A stretch of 64,000 bases of DNA from Pseudomonas lurida (GTDB taxonomy: Bacteria; Pseudomonadota; Gammaproteobacteria; Pseudomonadales; Pseudomonadaceae). The notes beneath the pieces were generated by a model, which was not told where the DNA came from, did no database searches, and was given only the letters and a program-made list of their open reading frames with translations. The position numbers and the translations under genes were made by a program. How positions within the stretch are numbered: position 1 is the first letter of the stretch; each line of letters begins with the position of its first letter. This document shows positions 58,515-64,000 of this stretch, piece by piece. The DNA is taken from contig NZ_PDJB01000001.1 in NCBI RefSeq assembly GCF_002563895.1, positions 4,633,501-4,697,500 on the forward strand, written 5' to 3'.

Positions 58515-58991
58515 TCAGTAGCGATGCGCGACCAACTGCTCATAATACGCCCAGATTTTCTCCGCATACTGCATGCGCAACGCTTCACGCTCAGGCCCCG
58601 ACCCCGTCCCCGCGTTGTAGGAACCTACTGCCTTCCAGTTGTAGCCAAAGCGCTGGATGAACTCGGCGAGAATCGAAGCCCCCACTTCTACCGACAGGCA
58701 TGGCTCAGTGAGCAGGCGTTCCTCGGTAATCCCCTGCTTGAGCAGGCTCGGCAGGTGGATGCTGTTGATCTGCATCAGGCCGATGTCTCGGGTGCCATTG
58801 CGGTTGGCATGATTCATCGCTTGCGCACGAAAACCCGACTCCACGGCGGCGATCGCTTGCAGCAACTCCGGCTCGATATTGTGCTGGCTGGCAGCCTCCT
58901 CCCAGCAAAACGCCAGTGCCTGATTGCTGGCCATCATCACGCTCAGCGCCACGCCCTTGCTCAAGAACCTAGCCACGCTTGACCCACCCAT
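58515..58991 (-). CDS. Lytic transglycosylase, IagB/IpgF-like (type III secretion associated family)
   Basis: The 158-residue protein has a signal peptide (about residues 7-27, ending NQALAF) and an SLT domain. [20 protein letters not shown] leads to [11 protein letters not shown] with the catalytic Glu, then [13 protein letters not shown] and SYNAGTGSG. The Cys right after the signal peptide and overall length match IagB-like proteins, which open peptidoglycan for secretion machines. ATG at 58991 overlaps the upstream gene by 23 bases; GTG at 58976, with GGTGGG before it, is an alternative. It is last of a three-gene minus-strand set. Confidence 0.87.
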
Positions 58992-59373
58992 GGCTGACTT
59001 GGCCGCAGGACGTGCACACATGCTCCACGCGGTCGGGTGCATGGCCCCCGGTCACCACCGGGCATGTAAAGCGGTAGCCCCGACCGTAGATCGTCTTGAT
59101 AAAGCCCTTGTCGGCACCCAGGTACTTGCGCAGTGAGTAAATGCAGCGCGTCAGAGATTCCTCGGCAACCTCACCTTGAGGCCAGGCCAGCTCCAACAAC
59201 CGGTCCTTGGTCATCAACACGCCACCAGATACCAGTAATAGCCGCAACACTTGCCACTCCTTGGGTGGTAACTGAACGTCCGCCCCCGCGCCTGCCAGGC
59301 GACCATCGCCATGCAGGACCCAGCACGCAAAGATCAGGGGAGTCGTCGCCCCTCCCTCACCCACGACAGCCAT
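58969..59373 (-). CDS. HilA/OmpR-type winged-helix DNA-binding protein
   Basis: The 134-residue protein has one domain, a winged helix of the OmpR/ToxR class (about 12-105): LPPKEWQVLRLLL, ELAWPQGEVAEESLTRCIYS and KGFIKTIYGRGYRFTCPV. No receiver, TPR or membrane domain is present, so it is much shorter than HilA (about 550 residues). The tail has CTSC. GAGG lies 6 bases before the start. It overlaps the transglycosylase gene, which implies coupling. Likely a local regulator of the set. Confidence 0.82.
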   Translation of the reverse strand: MAVVGEGGATTPLIFACWVLHGDGRLAGAGADVQLPPKEWQVLRLLLVSGGVLMTKDRLLELAWPQGEVAEESLTRCIYSLRKYLGADKGFIKTIYGRGYRFTCPVVTGGHAPDRVEHVCTSCGQVSHGWVKRG

Positions 59374-59587
59374 TGCTACCTCGATATCCGACTGCTGACA
59401 TTGAAGTCCTCACATTCATTACTGGCTCATGTGCCCCTGCCACGACTATACGAACCTGACACACGACTCACGCTAGGAAAAAGCCGATATATCCAGCGGT
59501 TTTGGAGACCGCGCCGTAAGACGTTTCACCATTCACCGTTTCCAGGCCGCCGCCTGATACACCTCGCGCCATTCAACGCCCAGTCAG

Positions 59588-61021
59588 TCACGGTGAGACA
59601 TCACGCCCCCGACGCACAAACGCACGCTGGACGCGCTCGTATTGCGTAGCCGTCAAGGGCGGTGGCCCTGCGGCGCCCCCTTTCGGCTCGTCCTCCAGGG
59701 CCCTGGCCTGGATCACGAACAGCCGTACTTGCGCTGGACGACCAGGCCCTCGCCGTTCTGGCTCCCGCTCGAATGCGCCGAGCCATAGACGCCTGCCCTG
59801 AGGTACACGCACCACACTGTTGATGCTCACTCGCCCCACTGCCGTGTTTTCTTCACGCCGCCCCGCCTCGCTCATCTGGCGCTCCTCTCCAACCTCCAGG
59901 CGCATCTCGATCTGGTTGGCCTCGGCAAAACGCGGCAGTACGCTGACCTGGGTGCCATAACGCACAGGCTTCCAATCAACCCGATCGTCTCCGGCAGAAG
60001 GCAGGTAGAACGTGCGGTTGTCCTGGAACACCGCAGGCACATTCTCTTGGGTGAGAATCACCGGCAATGTCGCCACCCTCGCTCGCCGACGACGCTCCAA
60101 TGTGCCGATCTTGGCCATCAGGTCACGATCGTCCTGCGGCGCCAGGACTCGCGTCGGCGAAGCGTTCGCGCCCTCGTCCCAGTCCAGGCCGAGCTTCTTG
60201 AGTTCAGCGCGCTCCACATCCACCACCCACAGCGAGACCTCGATGGGCCGCTTGGGTATGTCGAGCTCCGCAACCAGGTTCTGGATGAAACTCACCTGCG
60301 CCGGCTTGCCCTTGATCAGCAGGCTGTTGCTGTCCGCGTAGGCGATCACGCCAAGACTCTTGTCGGCGAGCAACCCCTCGTGTTCGCTGGCCAGCAGGGT
60401 TTCGACCATCGACGCCATGCCCGGTACGGTGACCGGATTGTCGCGCGTGCCGTAGTGCCGGTCTGCGACATCGGTGTTGAGCACCTGGATGACGGCAAAG
60501 GCCTGCTTGCCCACCGTCAGGTCAGCTCTTTGCCGGTCCATCAGTTGGGCCAGGCGCAGCACCTGGTCGACATATTTCGGTGGGCCCGACACATAAAATG
60601 TTCGCCCTCCATTTTCACGCAAGGGATGACGTGACTCATCGAGGCCCGCGCGGCGCATGAGGCTACGCAGCCGGTCGACGGATATATGCCGCAAGGTTAC
60701 GGCCGAGCGCGTGGCCTCGTCAGCGTCATAGACATACAGCGCTTGCGCATCGCCATACCAGATCAGCCCCTGTTGCAGCGCAAGCATCTCCAGGGCCTGC
60801 TGCGGCGCATCGAAATCCAGCGCTGCGCTGACGCGTTTGCGTGCCACTGCCTGGCTGACGACGATAGGCAACCCGAGCGACTCCGAGAGGGCAGTCAATA
60901 CGGTATGCAGGCTGTCGTTGTGTGCCTGGTAGAGCGTGCCCCTGGCCAGCACGCTCTGCGACAGCAGCGCGCAAATGAGCGCAACAAACAATAACCATCG
61001 GCAAAACCGGAGGCGGGGCAT
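59588..61021 (-). CDS. Secretin of the type III secretion outer-membrane ring (SctC/InvG-like)
   Basis: The 477-residue protein has a signal peptide (about residues 5-27, CRWLLFVALICALLSQSVLA), an N0-like domain (HTVLTALSESLGLPIVVSQ), ring-building N1 and N3 regions (TFYVSGPPKYVDQVLRLAQL; SLLIKGKPAQVSFIQNLVAE) and a secretin domain with VILTQENVPAVF and VVRVPQGRRLWLGAFERE. It is somewhat shorter than InvG (about 560). ATG at 61021 is used; GTG at 61045 would add eight residues. No other secretion apparatus genes are in the window. Confidence 0.86.
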   Translation of the reverse strand: MPRLRFCRWLLFVALICALLSQSVLARGTLYQAHNDSLHTVLTALSESLGLPIVVSQAVARKRVSAALDFDAPQQALEMLALQQGLIWYGDAQALYVYDADEATRSAVTLRHISVDRLRSLMRRAGLDESRHPLRENGGRTFYVSGPPKYVDQVLRLAQLMDRQRADLTVGKQAFAVIQVLNTDVADRHYGTRDNPVTVPGMASMVETLLASEHEGLLADKSLGVIAYADSNSLLIKGKPAQVSFIQNLVAELDIPKRPIEVSLWVVDVERAELKKLGLDWDEGANASPTRVLAPQDDRDLMAKIGTLERRRRARVATLPVILTQENVPAVFQDNRTFYLPSAGDDRVDWKPVRYGTQVSVLPRFAEANQIEMRLEVGEERQMSEAGRREENTAVGRVSINSVVRVPQGRRLWLGAFEREPERRGPGRPAQVRLFVIQARALEDEPKGGAAGPPPLTATQYERVQRAFVRRGRDVSP

Positions 61022-61294
61022 CGTTGCAGGGAAGTCGGCATACACCGTGGCGTTTCCTGGGCGGTCTGGCTAGAGAGTGCCGCCATACTGAAAGGCCGCC
61101 TGGTTTGAATCTTGATGGAAAGTTGACGACCGACTCAACCTTCACCCCCGTGGCATGTGCCTTGCTATGAAGTCTGTATCAGAGCCCGCGCCAACGGCGG
61201 AGCGAGCTTACGGACAAAGGCGTCGTTACCCACACTGGCTTGCATCGCCATCTGCGGGAACGACGCTTTTTTTTGAATGAAAAGGTAGGTGTTG

Positions 61295-62521
61295 ATGAAC
61301 GATTCGGCAGGCGACAGCCCGATGAACGACCCGCTGGCCTGGGTCAATGGCAGTGATGCCCCGGAAAAAAGCAGCCTCGACCTGGGTTTCATGGCCTTGA
61401 GCGACTGCGCCTCGATGGTGGTGGCGGCCACCCAGGGCTTCGCCCAACCCTACGGCCTGACGCTCAATCTCAAGCGCCAATCATCCTGGGCCAACCTGCG
61501 CGACAAACTGGTCAGCGGCGAACTGGACGCCGCCCACAGCCTGTACGGGTTGATCTATGCGGTGCACCTGGGCATCGGCGGCGTCGCGCCCACCGACATG
61601 GCCGTACTGATGGGGCTTAACCAGAACGGCCAGAGCATCAACCTGTCCCACGGTTTGCAACAGCAAGGCGTGATCACTCCTGAGGCGCTGGATCGCCACG
61701 TGCACCAAAGCCGAACAAAACTGACCTTCGCCCAGACCTTTCCCACAGGCACCCACGCCATGTGGTTGTATTACTGGCTGGCGAGCCAAGGCATTCATCC
61801 CTTGCACGATGTGGACAGCGTGGTGGTCCCGCCGCCGCAAATGGTTGCGCACCTGCAAGCTGGGCGTATCGATGGCTTTTGCGTCGGCGAACCCTGGTGC
61901 GCCAGCGCGGTGAAGCAGAACCAAGGGTTTACCTTGGCGACGAGCCAGGCGATCTGGCCGGACCATCCGGAAAAGGTGCTCGGCTGCACCCAGGCGTTTG
62001 TCGAACAGTACCCCAACACCGCGCGCGTGCTGGTGATGGCTATCCTGGAGGCCAGCCGGTTTATCGAAGAGAGCAGCGAAAACCGCCGCTCCACCGCCCA
62101 ACTGCTCAGTGGGCGCGAGTACCTTGACGCTCCACTCGACTGCATCGAACCACGACTGCTGGGCGCCTATGACGACGGCCTGGGCAACCAGTGGCAAGAT
62201 CCCCACGCCCTGCGTTTTTTCGCCGGTGGCGAGGTGAACCTGCCCTACCTTTCCGACGGCATGTGGTTCATGACCCAGTTCCGGCGCTGGGGCCTGTTGC
62301 GTGAGGATCCCGACTACCTGGGCATTGCCCGCCAGGTGCAGCAACTGGCGCTCTACCGTGAAGCGGCCAAGGCGCTGGGCATTGCCGACAACGGCCATGA
62401 CATGCGCAGCAGTCAGTTGATCGACGGCAAGGTCTGGGACGGCGCCGACCCCACCGGCTATGCGCGCAGCTTCCGCCTGCATGCCATGGCAGAACCTTCC
62501 AGCCGCCACGCCTTGCGCTGA
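61295..62521 (+). CDS. nasS: Nitrate/nitrite sensor NasS (CmpA/NrtA-like, cytoplasmic)
   Basis: The 408-residue protein has the NrtA/CmpA solute-binding fold (GFMALSDCASMVVAATQGFA, WANLRDKLVSGELDAAH, VVVPPPQMVAHLQAGRIDGF, FCVGEPWCASAV) but no signal peptide. That is the mark of NasS, which holds NasT inactive without nitrate. ATG at 61295 has AGGTAGG upstream; ATG at 61322 is possible. It is divergent from the secretin gene and 13 bases before nasT. Confidence 0.92.
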   Translation: MNDSAGDSPMNDPLAWVNGSDAPEKSSLDLGFMALSDCASMVVAATQGFAQPYGLTLNLKRQSSWANLRDKLVSGELDAAHSLYGLIYAVHLGIGGVAPTDMAVLMGLNQNGQSINLSHGLQQQGVITPEALDRHVHQSRTKLTFAQTFPTGTHAMWLYYWLASQGIHPLHDVDSVVVPPPQMVAHLQAGRIDGFCVGEPWCASAVKQNQGFTLATSQAIWPDHPEKVLGCTQAFVEQYPNTARVLVMAILEASRFIEESSENRRSTAQLLSGREYLDAPLDCIEPRLLGAYDDGLGNQWQDPHALRFFAGGEVNLPYLSDGMWFMTQFRRWGLLREDPDYLGIARQVQQLALYREAAKALGIADNGHDMRSSQLIDGKVWDGADPTGYARSFRLHAMAEPSSRHALR

Positions 62522-62534
62522 CAGGAGGCCCCCG

Positions 62535-63110
62535 ATGCTGCGAATCCTGTTGATCAACGACACCCCGCGCAAGGTCGGCCGCCTCAGGGCGGCGCTGATC
62601 GAGGCCGGTTTTGAGGTGATCGATGAGTCCGGCCTGACCATTGACCTACCCGCGCGCGTCGAAACGGTGCGCCCGGACGTCATCCTGATCGATACCGAGT
62701 CACCGGGCCGCGATGTGATGGAGCAAGTGGTCTTGGTCAGCCGCGACCAACCCCGTCCCATTGTGATGTTTACCGACGAGCACGACCCGAACGTAATGCG
62801 CCAGGCGATCAAGTCCGGCGTCAGCGCCTACATCGTCGAAGGCATCCAGGCCCAGCGCCTGCAGCCGATCCTCGACGTGGCCATGGCCCGCTTTGAAAGC
62901 GACCAGGCCTTGCGCGCCCAACTCCACGCGCGCGACCAGCAACTGGCCGAGCGCAAGCGCATCGAGTTGGCCAAGGGCATGTTGATGAAAATGAAAGACT
63001 GCAACGAGGAAGAGGCCTATACCCTGATGCGCCGCCAGGCCATGAGCCGTCAGCAGAAGCTGATCCAGGTGGCGGAGCAGATTATCGCCATGAGTGAGTT
63101 GCTGGGCTGA
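62535..63110 (+). CDS. nasT: Nitrate antitermination regulator NasT (ANTAR domain)
   Basis: The 191-residue protein has a receiver-like domain (residues 1-120; VILIDTESPGRD holds the acidic site) and a C-terminal ANTAR domain (about 130-188, with ERKRIELAKGMLMKMKDCNE and EEAYTLMRRQAM). It binds dual-hexaloop leader RNA to prevent termination when nitrate is sensed by NasS. AGGAGG precedes the start. A matching leader lies immediately downstream. Confidence 0.94.
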   Translation: MLRILLINDTPRKVGRLRAALIEAGFEVIDESGLTIDLPARVETVRPDVILIDTESPGRDVMEQVVLVSRDQPRPIVMFTDEHDPNVMRQAIKSGVSAYIVEGIQAQRLQPILDVAMARFESDQALRAQLHARDQQLAERKRIELAKGMLMKMKDCNEEEAYTLMRRQAMSRQQKLIQVAEQIIAMSELLG

Positions 63111-63130: not shown

Positions 63131-63146
63131 TGGCGCAGCTCTTGCT
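63131..63146 (+). promoter_or_regulatory. Sigma-54 promoter of the nitrate transporter operon
   Basis: TGGCGCAGCTCTTGCT fits the -24/-12 consensus TGGCACG-N4-TTGCW with exact GG-GC spacing. The predicted start near 63157 is only 4 bases before the first leader hairpin. NtrC control is expected for nitrogen assimilation. Confidence 0.8.
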
Positions 63147-63160
63147 AAGTAAACATCACA

Positions 63161-63200
63161 GGTAGCCAACGGCGGTTGCCCCTCCACGACAAAGACGTCG
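63161..63200 (+). ncRNA. ANTAR-target antitermination leader, two hexaloop hairpins
   Basis: Hairpin 1 (63161-63180) is GGTAGCC-AACGGC-GGTTGCC. Hairpin 2 (63187-63200) is CGAC-AAAGAC-GTCG, six bases later. Both loops have six bases with A at position 1 and G at position 4, the signature of RNAs bound by ANTAR proteins such as NasT. The 3' arm of hairpin 2 overlaps the terminator stem. Confidence 0.88.
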
Positions 63201-63242
63201 CACACCCGGTTTGCCCTCGCGAACCCGGTGGCGGCGTTTTTT
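63196..63242 (+). terminator. Conditional terminator of the nas leader
   Basis: CGTCGC (63196-63201) pairs with GCGGCG (63231-63236) around an inner ACCCGGTTTG/CGAACCCGGT stem, followed by six T (63237-63242). It shares GTCG with hairpin 2, so the two structures exclude each other. Confidence 0.85.
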
Positions 63243-63337
63243 CGTTTTGGCCCCGGAGACGGGGCCGGTGGGGCGGCCTTAGCCGGCTGTTCCATCACCA
63301 GGCCTTCTTACAAGACTCCCAACCGTTGAGGTGCGTG

Positions 63338-64000
63338 ATGAAATCAAGCTTCTGGAAATCCGGGCACACCCCGACCCTGTTTGCCGCGTTCCTGTATTTC
63401 GACCTGAGCTTCATGGTCTGGTACCTGCTGGGCCCCTTGGCGGTGCAGATTGCCGCCGACCTGCACCTGACCACCCAACAACGCGGCCTGGTGGTGGCGA
63501 CACCCATCCTCGCGGGTGCGGTGCTGCGCTTCCTGATGGGCATGCTGGCAGACAAACTGTCGCCCAAGACCGCCGGCCTGATCGGCCAGGTGATTGTGAT
63601 CTGCGCCTTGTTCGGCGCCTGGAAACTGGGCATCCACAGTTACGAACAAGCCCTGCTGTTGGGCGTGTTCCTCGGCATGGCCGGCGCTTCCTTCGCGGTT
63701 GCACTGCCGCTGGCTTCCCAATGGTACCCGGCCGAGCACCAGGGCAAGGCCATGGGCATCGCTGGCGCGGGCAACTCGGGCACCGTGTTCGCCGCGTTGC
63801 TGGCGCCTGTGCTGGCGGCCGCATTCGGCTGGAGCAACGTCTTCGGCTTTGCATTGATCCCGCTGGTGCTGACCCTGATCGTGTTTGCCTGGCTGGCGCG
63901 CAATGCCCCTAAACGGCCCAAGGCCAAGTCCATGGCCGACTACTTCAAGGCGCTGGGCGACCGTGACAGCTGGTGGTTCATGTTTTTCTACAGCGTGACC
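63338..64000 (+). CDS. nasA: Nitrate transporter, NasA/NarK-type MFS, 3' end cut by window
   Basis: The frame is open to the window end, giving the first 221 residues. It starts MKSSFWKSGHTPTLFAAFLY and contains about six membrane spans, with LSFMVWYLLGPLAVQIAADL in span 1 and the NarK-type glycine-rich MAGASFAVALPLASQWYPAE near residue 115. It imports nitrate for assimilation, downstream of the NasT leader. GAGGTGCGTG precedes the start at 63338. A nitrate/nitrite reductase gene set probably follows outside the window. Confidence 0.9.
   Translation, partial: MKSSFWKSGHTPTLFAAFLYFDLSFMVWYLLGPLAVQIAADLHLTTQQRGLVVATPILAGAVLRFLMGMLADKLSPKTAGLIGQVIVICALFGAWKLGIHSYEQALLLGVFLGMAGASFAVALPLASQWYPAEHQGKAMGIAGAGNSGTVFAALLAPVLAAAFGWSNVFGFALIPLVLTLIVFAWLARNAPKRPKAKSMADYFKALGDRDSWWFMFFYSVT

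Follow-up and report, generated by a model that had tools for sequence, protein, structure and literature searches.

The window, a 64,000-nucleotide stretch of the Pseudomonas lurida genome, carries near its end the genes nasS and nasT and the first part of a gene for a NarK-family transporter. A leader element precedes nasS and another precedes narK. The features of both are listed below with the basis on which each was placed.

61151-61166, + strand: sigma54-type promoter of the nasS leader, TGGCATGTGCCTTGCT (sequence pattern)
61152-61226, + strand: sub-threshold match of the nasS leader to the Rfam narK RNA (35.2 bits against a gathering cut-off of 43.2)
61182-61209, + strand: predicted hairpin P1 of the nasS leader, hexaloop AACGGC at 61193-61198, two internal mismatches (folding, covariation)
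61213-61224, + strand: predicted hairpin P2 of the nasS leader, hexaloop AAAGGC at 61216-61221 (hexaloop scan and loops of relatives)
61216-61274, + strand: predicted terminator of the nasS leader, eight T at 61267-61274 (folding)
61289-62521, + strand: nasS, an NMT1-like protein of the periplasmic-binding type and presumed nitrate sensor (an ATG at 61295 is also possible)
62535-63110, + strand: nasT, response-regulator receiver and ANTAR RNA-binding domain (ANTAR E 2.1e-16)
63131-63146, + strand: sigma54-type -24/-12 promoter of the narK leader, TGGCGCAGCTCTTGCT (sequence pattern)
63132-63201, + strand: match to Rfam RF03032, narK RNA (81 bits, gathering cut-off 43.2, Rfam release 15)
63157, + strand: predicted transcription start of the narK leader (from the promoter)
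63161-63180, + strand: predicted hairpin P1 of the narK leader, hexaloop AACGGC at 63168-63173 (folding, family-wide P1 covariation)
63187-63200, + strand: predicted hairpin P2 of the narK leader, hexaloop AAAGAC at 63191-63196 (folding, hexaloop scan)
63191-63242, + strand: predicted intrinsic terminator of the narK leader, six T at 63237-63242 (folding)
63338-64000, + strand: NarK-family nitrate/nitrite MFS transporter (TIGR00886, partial and below its cut-off)

The narK gene begins with the ATG at 63338 and runs past the window end; in locus L011 it encodes 403 amino acids. It is followed 3' by a protein kinase/PP2C phosphatase gene and then by a tetrapyrrole methylase gene (cobA-type). Positions 58515-61045, beside nasS, carry three features on the opposite strand: a transglycosylase-like ORF, judged by eye, a regulator resembling HilA, and a type III secretion secretin of the SPI-1 type.

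The narK leader sits between nasT and the transporter gene, and it follows nasS-nasT directly, as the original prediction had it. The C of the -12 element at 63145 places the transcription start at about 63157, four bases 5' of P1, also as predicted. P1 (GGUAGCC-AACGGC-GGUUGCC) and P2 (CGAC-AAAGAC-GUCG) each have at least three pairs and a six-base loop with A first and G fourth, and the two loops agreed with the earlier description to the base. Their loop-to-loop spacing is 23 nt. The claim that the second hairpin is shared with a terminator ending in six T was likewise borne out: the 5' arm of the terminator (63191-63201) consists of the P2 loop and the P2 3' arm.

The 64 kb contain the exact -24/-12 pattern four times, once each at the narK and nasS leaders, and by itself it is weak evidence. 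A dual-hexaloop and terminator scan of the window gave two matches on the plus strand and none on the minus strand, and both were the NasT-cluster leaders. Neither leader was listed by a sigma70 and terminator scan of the window, probably because of the loop and stem limits of that scan. A further hairpin, GGCCCC-loop-GGGGCC, follows the narK terminator at 63249-63266; its pattern occurs in 41 of 78 narK leaders.

The RNA folding check proposed with the original prediction was run on the narK leader. The full RNA folded at -46.9 kcal/mol (z -5.7), with equal stability in 0 of 200 shuffles. RNAs with 3' ends at 63181, 63201, 63215, 63225 and 63230 kept P1, plus P2 once it had been transcribed, and RNAs ending at 63235, 63240 and 63245 had lost P2 to the terminator. 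Loss of P2 from 63235 onward coincides with the appearance of the terminator 3' arm. P1 and P2 alone (63157-63201) were only moderately better than shuffles (z -1.84; 7 of 200 equally stable). When both were forced in the full RNA the energy was -32.2 kcal/mol, a cost of about 15 kcal/mol, which suggests that termination is the default in this leader. The same exchange was seen in relatives: 71 of 72 distinct narK leaders formed P1 and P2 in RNA ended 14 nt before the T run, and the terminated RNA kept P1 and lost P2 in all 72. P2 and the intrinsic terminator overlap and, in these folding models, are mutually exclusive.

The relatives were 80 named Pseudomonas loci, all close kin (NasT 95-99% identical). 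A scan of these loci (1.28 Mb, both strands, A1 and G4 required in both loops) returned 169 matches, namely 78 narK leaders, 46 nasS leaders, 44 downstream matches and 1 further stray. The downstream group comprised 41 matches with nirB-type P2 loops and 3 strays, giving four strays overall by loop type. The narK leader was thus present in 78 of the 80 loci; the other two (L075 and L097) differ in the sequence that follows nasT, of which they contain 257 and 950 nt. All 78 leaders had the -24/-12 element, with the -12 C 22-24 nt before the P1 loop (23 in 75/78), and the two loops were 23-24 nt apart in 75/78. Conservation over the 78 loci was 0.978 for P1, 0.999 for P2 and 0.869 for the promoter against 0.52 and 0.48 for the flanks, figures that include the scan's own requirement for A1/G4 and pairing, with the P2 letters partly set by the pattern.

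The leader is real, and it was already an Rfam family, RF03032, the same element as the one in the window. The suggested covariance-model search of other pseudomonads found RF03032 in 225 of the 249 genus genomes covered at E up to 0.01, 217 of them above the cut-off, with 150 matches listed individually. The Rfam structure pairs P1 only, and the P2 pairing and the terminator lie outside the model. The first approximately 25 positions of its alignment are the -24/-12 element and the stretch 5' of the predicted start. On this evidence the Rfam narK RNA reads as a NasT (ANTAR) leader whose annotated start would lie upstream of the transcript. A literature search by name for narK RNA found no paper, which does not imply absence from print.

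Beyond the genus, we searched with a custom model, R1, built from 42 leaders. At E up to 0.01, R1 had matches in 90 of the 119 family genomes, spread over 14 of 19 genera, a tally that takes in chance-level matches; at 30 bits or more, at least 10 of the 19 genera were represented among the matches listed. The best 29 new family loci (L142-L170; 7 in the genus, 22 outside) all adjoined a gene for NarK (21), NasS (7) or nitrate reductase (1). Family-wide covariation, from an alignment of 37 matches (A4), of which 30 were distinct and four scored below 30 bits, reached 0.408 compared to 0.113 in shuffled and at most 0.081 in slid pairings, and five P1 pairs showed double changes; A4 was fitted to the model, so this covariation leans towards the structure. 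P2 showed no covariation in the nasS set or the family-wide set, and it hardly varies. When the order was searched (115 genomes), single matches of 26.4-29.2 bits turned up in five genomes from outside the family; they are near chance level and were not counted. Seven matches in genome G320 with a 303-bp period (six at 26.9 and one at 24.7 bits) look like a repeated coding stretch and were set down to chance. The Pv1 sRNA of P. vranovensis was rejected as a narK leader since its reported flanks are iron and sugar operons.

The nasS leader repeats the module in front of the sensor and antiterminator genes themselves. It scored 54.6 bits with R1 and 18.8 bits against P11, the Rfam RNA discussed below. 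Its P2 has three firm pairs, and the shortened RNA from the window formed neither P1 nor P2 in its minimum-energy fold. In contrast to the strict scan, which found 46 nasS leaders, a promoter-anchored pattern recognised promoter and leader in 76 of the 80 named loci. The leader was degraded in L066 and L086; L091 (P. poae) and L092 (P. trivialis) kept the promoter, about 1.3 kb before nasT, and lost the whole leader. In this pattern the P2 arm GAC and A1 of the P2 loop were fixed, G4 of P2 and the P1 loop letters were free, and P1 was placed by a spacing of 21-25 and best pairing. With the window's leader included (n=77), the P1 loop had A1 in 77/77 and G4 in 76/77 while its other positions varied, G4 of the P2 loop was present in 77/77, and the loops were 22-23 nt apart in 75/77. 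P1 of this class covaries: there were 88 double-change cells compared to 35 in shuffles, and the score was 0.262 compared to 0.109 shuffled and at most 0.081 for slid pairings, with two of the five measures at shuffle level (double-change pairs 4 vs 4.0; further pair types 9 vs 9.5). Terminated RNA of 76 distinct nasS leaders kept P1 and lost P2 in 70 and formed neither in 6. Outside the genus, nasS leaders were found in L156, L157, L159, L160 and L164.

Such a leader implies that NasT would antiterminate its own nasS-nasT operon. A literature search on nasST antitermination and autoregulation found no report, and papers that it did not detect may describe it. The term autoregulation does not occur in two Paracoccus papers, whose consulted passages show no self-antitermination. 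In Paracoccus nasTS is reported among the nitrate-induced genes, and a rise in nasT mRNA on ammonium depletion has been reported for P. putida. The spacer of the nasS promoter contains a near-invariant palindrome over the -24 element, GGCATRTGCC (72/76), where a second regulator may bind. In genome G320, an additional, diverged nasS-nasT pair and yet another nasS gene each lie behind a leader-like R1 match (L172 and L173; 29.0 and 27.4 bits, near chance level).

Three leaders, those of narK, nitrate reductase and nasS-nasT, are predicted in the P. lurida genome, with perhaps an atypical fourth at nirB. The nitrate-reductase leader, at G000:C1:3282046, scored 53.5 Rfam bits and 43.4 R1 bits. 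The gene behind it encodes a protein of 1327 residues in which a molybdopterin oxidoreductase is joined to flavodoxin, FAD- and NAD-binding domains; we read it as an assimilatory nitrate reductase. Loop-to-loop spacing is 23 nt in all three leaders. The candidate nirB leader (L012 2312-2150, minus strand) is divergent from the nitrate-reductase leader and has a -24/-12 element, a P1-like loop AACGAC and a P2, CAGGC-AAAGAC-GCCUG, inside a terminator. Its two loops are 76 nt apart, its 15.3 and 13.3 Rfam bits are below the Rfam cut-offs, and the R1 genome search gave no match there; its assignment as an atypical nirB leader is uncertain. The fourth R1 match of this genome (G000:C1:1347269, 24.5 bits) falls within a long open reading frame and has no run of T nearby; it is one of the chance-level matches in the family tally and was dismissed.

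In other pseudomonads nirB is preceded by P11 (RF00625, gathering cut-off 70). P11 matched 43 of 59 genus genomes, 38 above the cut-off; the P. lurida genome was without a match, including at the window's narK site. On contig G047:C17, P11 lies 3.3 kb downstream of narK RNA on the same strand. All 51 loci tested (41 named and ten P11 loci) had a NirB homologue right behind the leader, 45 on the listed strand and 6 in loci held on the opposite strand, with identities of about 35%. The NirB query began about 30 residues early, which makes the true distances about 90 nt longer than the printed offsets (-20 to 28) and put 45 loci outside the preset 40-250 nt bin. These neighbourhoods indicate that narK RNA and P11 are sister leaders and that P11 marks the leader of nirB. 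Judged by position, NalA and P11 would be one RNA. Nie 2024 and Romeo 2012 are reportedly the primary papers on NalA.

The nirB leaders differ from the narK leader by a third hairpin, UCCCG-AGAGAA-CGGGA, between P1 and P2. Its stem was present in 38 of 38 distinct leaders, and its loop was AGAGAA in 37 and AUAGAA in 1 under a scan that required A1/G4; the middle loop of L117, AGAAAA, is without G4. The distance from P1 to the third hairpin was 23-24 nt in 37/38, and from there to P2 17-18 nt. For folding, 41 of the 44 downstream matches and 4 of the ten P11 loci were used (38 distinct), and in the terminated RNA P1 and the third hairpin both formed in 32/38 and P2 in none. A correctly spaced A1/G4 pair thus survives termination in the P11 class, which allows a reading of the terminated RNA as a decoy; terminated narK and nasS RNAs keep one loop at most, making a decoy role less likely there. 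We suggest, very tentatively, that the nitrate switch of Pseudomonadaceae is both self-amplifying and self-limiting, with NasT antiterminating nasS-nasT and terminated leaders, P11 included, sequestering NasT.

These leaders resemble several described systems. In the NalA/P11 leaders of nirBD in P. aeruginosa and P. putida, a review reports a sigma54 promoter acting via NtrC, antitermination by NasT and interference by c-di-GMP, and the A1/G4 hexaloops and the P2 within the terminator are shared with the narK leader. The original prediction was right that NasT antitermination is known in other bacteria, but it is not confined to them, NalA being a Pseudomonas case. P11 differs in preceding nirB, in its extra A1/G4 hairpin and NtrC-like site, and in the longer distance from promoter to P1. 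In the eutP leader bound by EutV in Enterococcus, which responds to a different signal, Ramesh 2012 reports two A1/G4 hexaloops at A29/G32 and A53/G56 with a spacing of 24 nt, close to the 23 nt of the narK leader; altered linker length hurt eutP induction, and the search model used there allowed a variable linker. The NasR-nasF leader of Klebsiella is also reported as a nitrate-controlled ANTAR leader with an A1/G4 loop, but NasR senses nitrate itself whereas here a separate protein, NasS, would do so. NasT is reported to bind both Pseudomonas NalA and the Paracoccus nasA leader, and a chromosomal mutation in hairpin I of the latter is reported to abolish growth on nitrate; Paracoccus differs in that nasT expression is described as dependent on an NtrC-type site.

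The original prediction had called the narK leader complete. All of the parts that it named are present, but the word overstated the case: on a crude score, none of the 78 loci had an NtrC-like palindrome of 13 or more at up to 350 bp from the narK promoter, and at least three such elements occur in the genome. By the same crude palindrome score, 9 of 76 nasS promoters reached 13 or more compared to 9.5% of 800 random stretches, a share not above background. Such a site lies some 71 nt before the promoter in the P11 class, with 26 of 41 reaching that score. Sigma54 promoters without upstream sites have been reported in Pseudomonas. A further misfit comes from Bradyrhizobium, where a NasT-type hairpin is predicted at narK, yet the gene is reported to be up in a nasT mutant under denitrification.

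With a probability of about 90%, we read the narK leader as a two-step sigma54 and NasT nitrate switch for the operon of narK, a nasA-type nitrate transporter gene. The anatomy, fold exchange, conservation, P1 covariation and gene neighbourhoods were computed; from the whole we infer NasT binding, the nitrate response, promoter use and the extent of the operon. A sigma54 promoter, presumably controlled by nitrogen limitation, would start the RNA just 5' of P1. Without nitrate, NasS would hold NasT, the terminator would take P2 and transcription would end at 63237-63242. With nitrate or nitrite, freed NasT would bind the A1/G4 loops of P1 and P2, 23 nt apart, and hold P2, such that polymerase would read into narK, the kinase/phosphatase gene and the cobA-type gene. 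The same module would act before nasS-nasT as self-induction, before the molybdopterin/diflavin nitrate reductase and, less certainly, before the atypical nirB.

The unit could also be an ordinary attenuator or sRNA terminator that mainly yields a stand-alone small RNA, with narK transcribed from elsewhere. The sister element P11 has the Rfam type gene and has been studied as an sRNA, and the predicted terminated product here is about 85 nt. An sRNA alone would have no need of the conserved hexaloops, 23-24 nt spacing and P2/terminator overlap, and a nitrate-assimilation gene lay directly downstream in 29 of the 29 best-scoring family loci checked; we consider this explanation very improbable. 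Since A1/G4 hexaloops are reported to be common to ANTAR targets, another ANTAR protein, of the AmiR type, might bind the leader in place of NasT. A Pfam ANTAR search of the whole genome gave a single match, nasT, and nitrate genes adjoin the confident leaders, both here and at the 29 family loci, leaving hardly any room for such a protein. NasT-type control, as originally proposed, is thus supported: the leader fits the ANTAR rules reported in Ramesh 2012, and the genome search found no ANTAR protein besides NasT.

For the nasS leader, the alternative is a remnant with no active switch, in which case nasS-nasT would be expressed regardless of nitrate. The four loci with lost or degraded leaders and the weak P2 of this class fit a remnant. 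Against it stand the retention of promoter and leader in the other 76 of 80 loci, the A1 and G4 kept while other loop bases drift, the covariation of P1, and the fold of the terminated RNA in 70 of 76. We regard a remnant as unlikely and retain the NasT-controlled self-leader as the preferred reading.

The narK leader itself is a further instance of a known RNA family and of a mechanism known in the genus. What is added here is the nasS self-leader, the grouping of several leaders into one regulon with a single ANTAR protein, and the connection of narK RNA to P11. These results assign a likely function to the Rfam narK RNA family and tie it, as a sister NasT leader, to P11, a small RNA reported in eLife to regulate a nitrogen assimilation operon with NirB, NirD and NasC and linked to learned avoidance in C. 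elegans. If the decoy reading is true, P11 would be the nirB leader and a NasT-sequestering small RNA at once. The self-leader predicts a positive feedback loop in nitrate sensing, within a small regulon that may be read from sequence: the sensor and antiterminator, the transporter, the nitrate reductase and perhaps the nitrite reductase.
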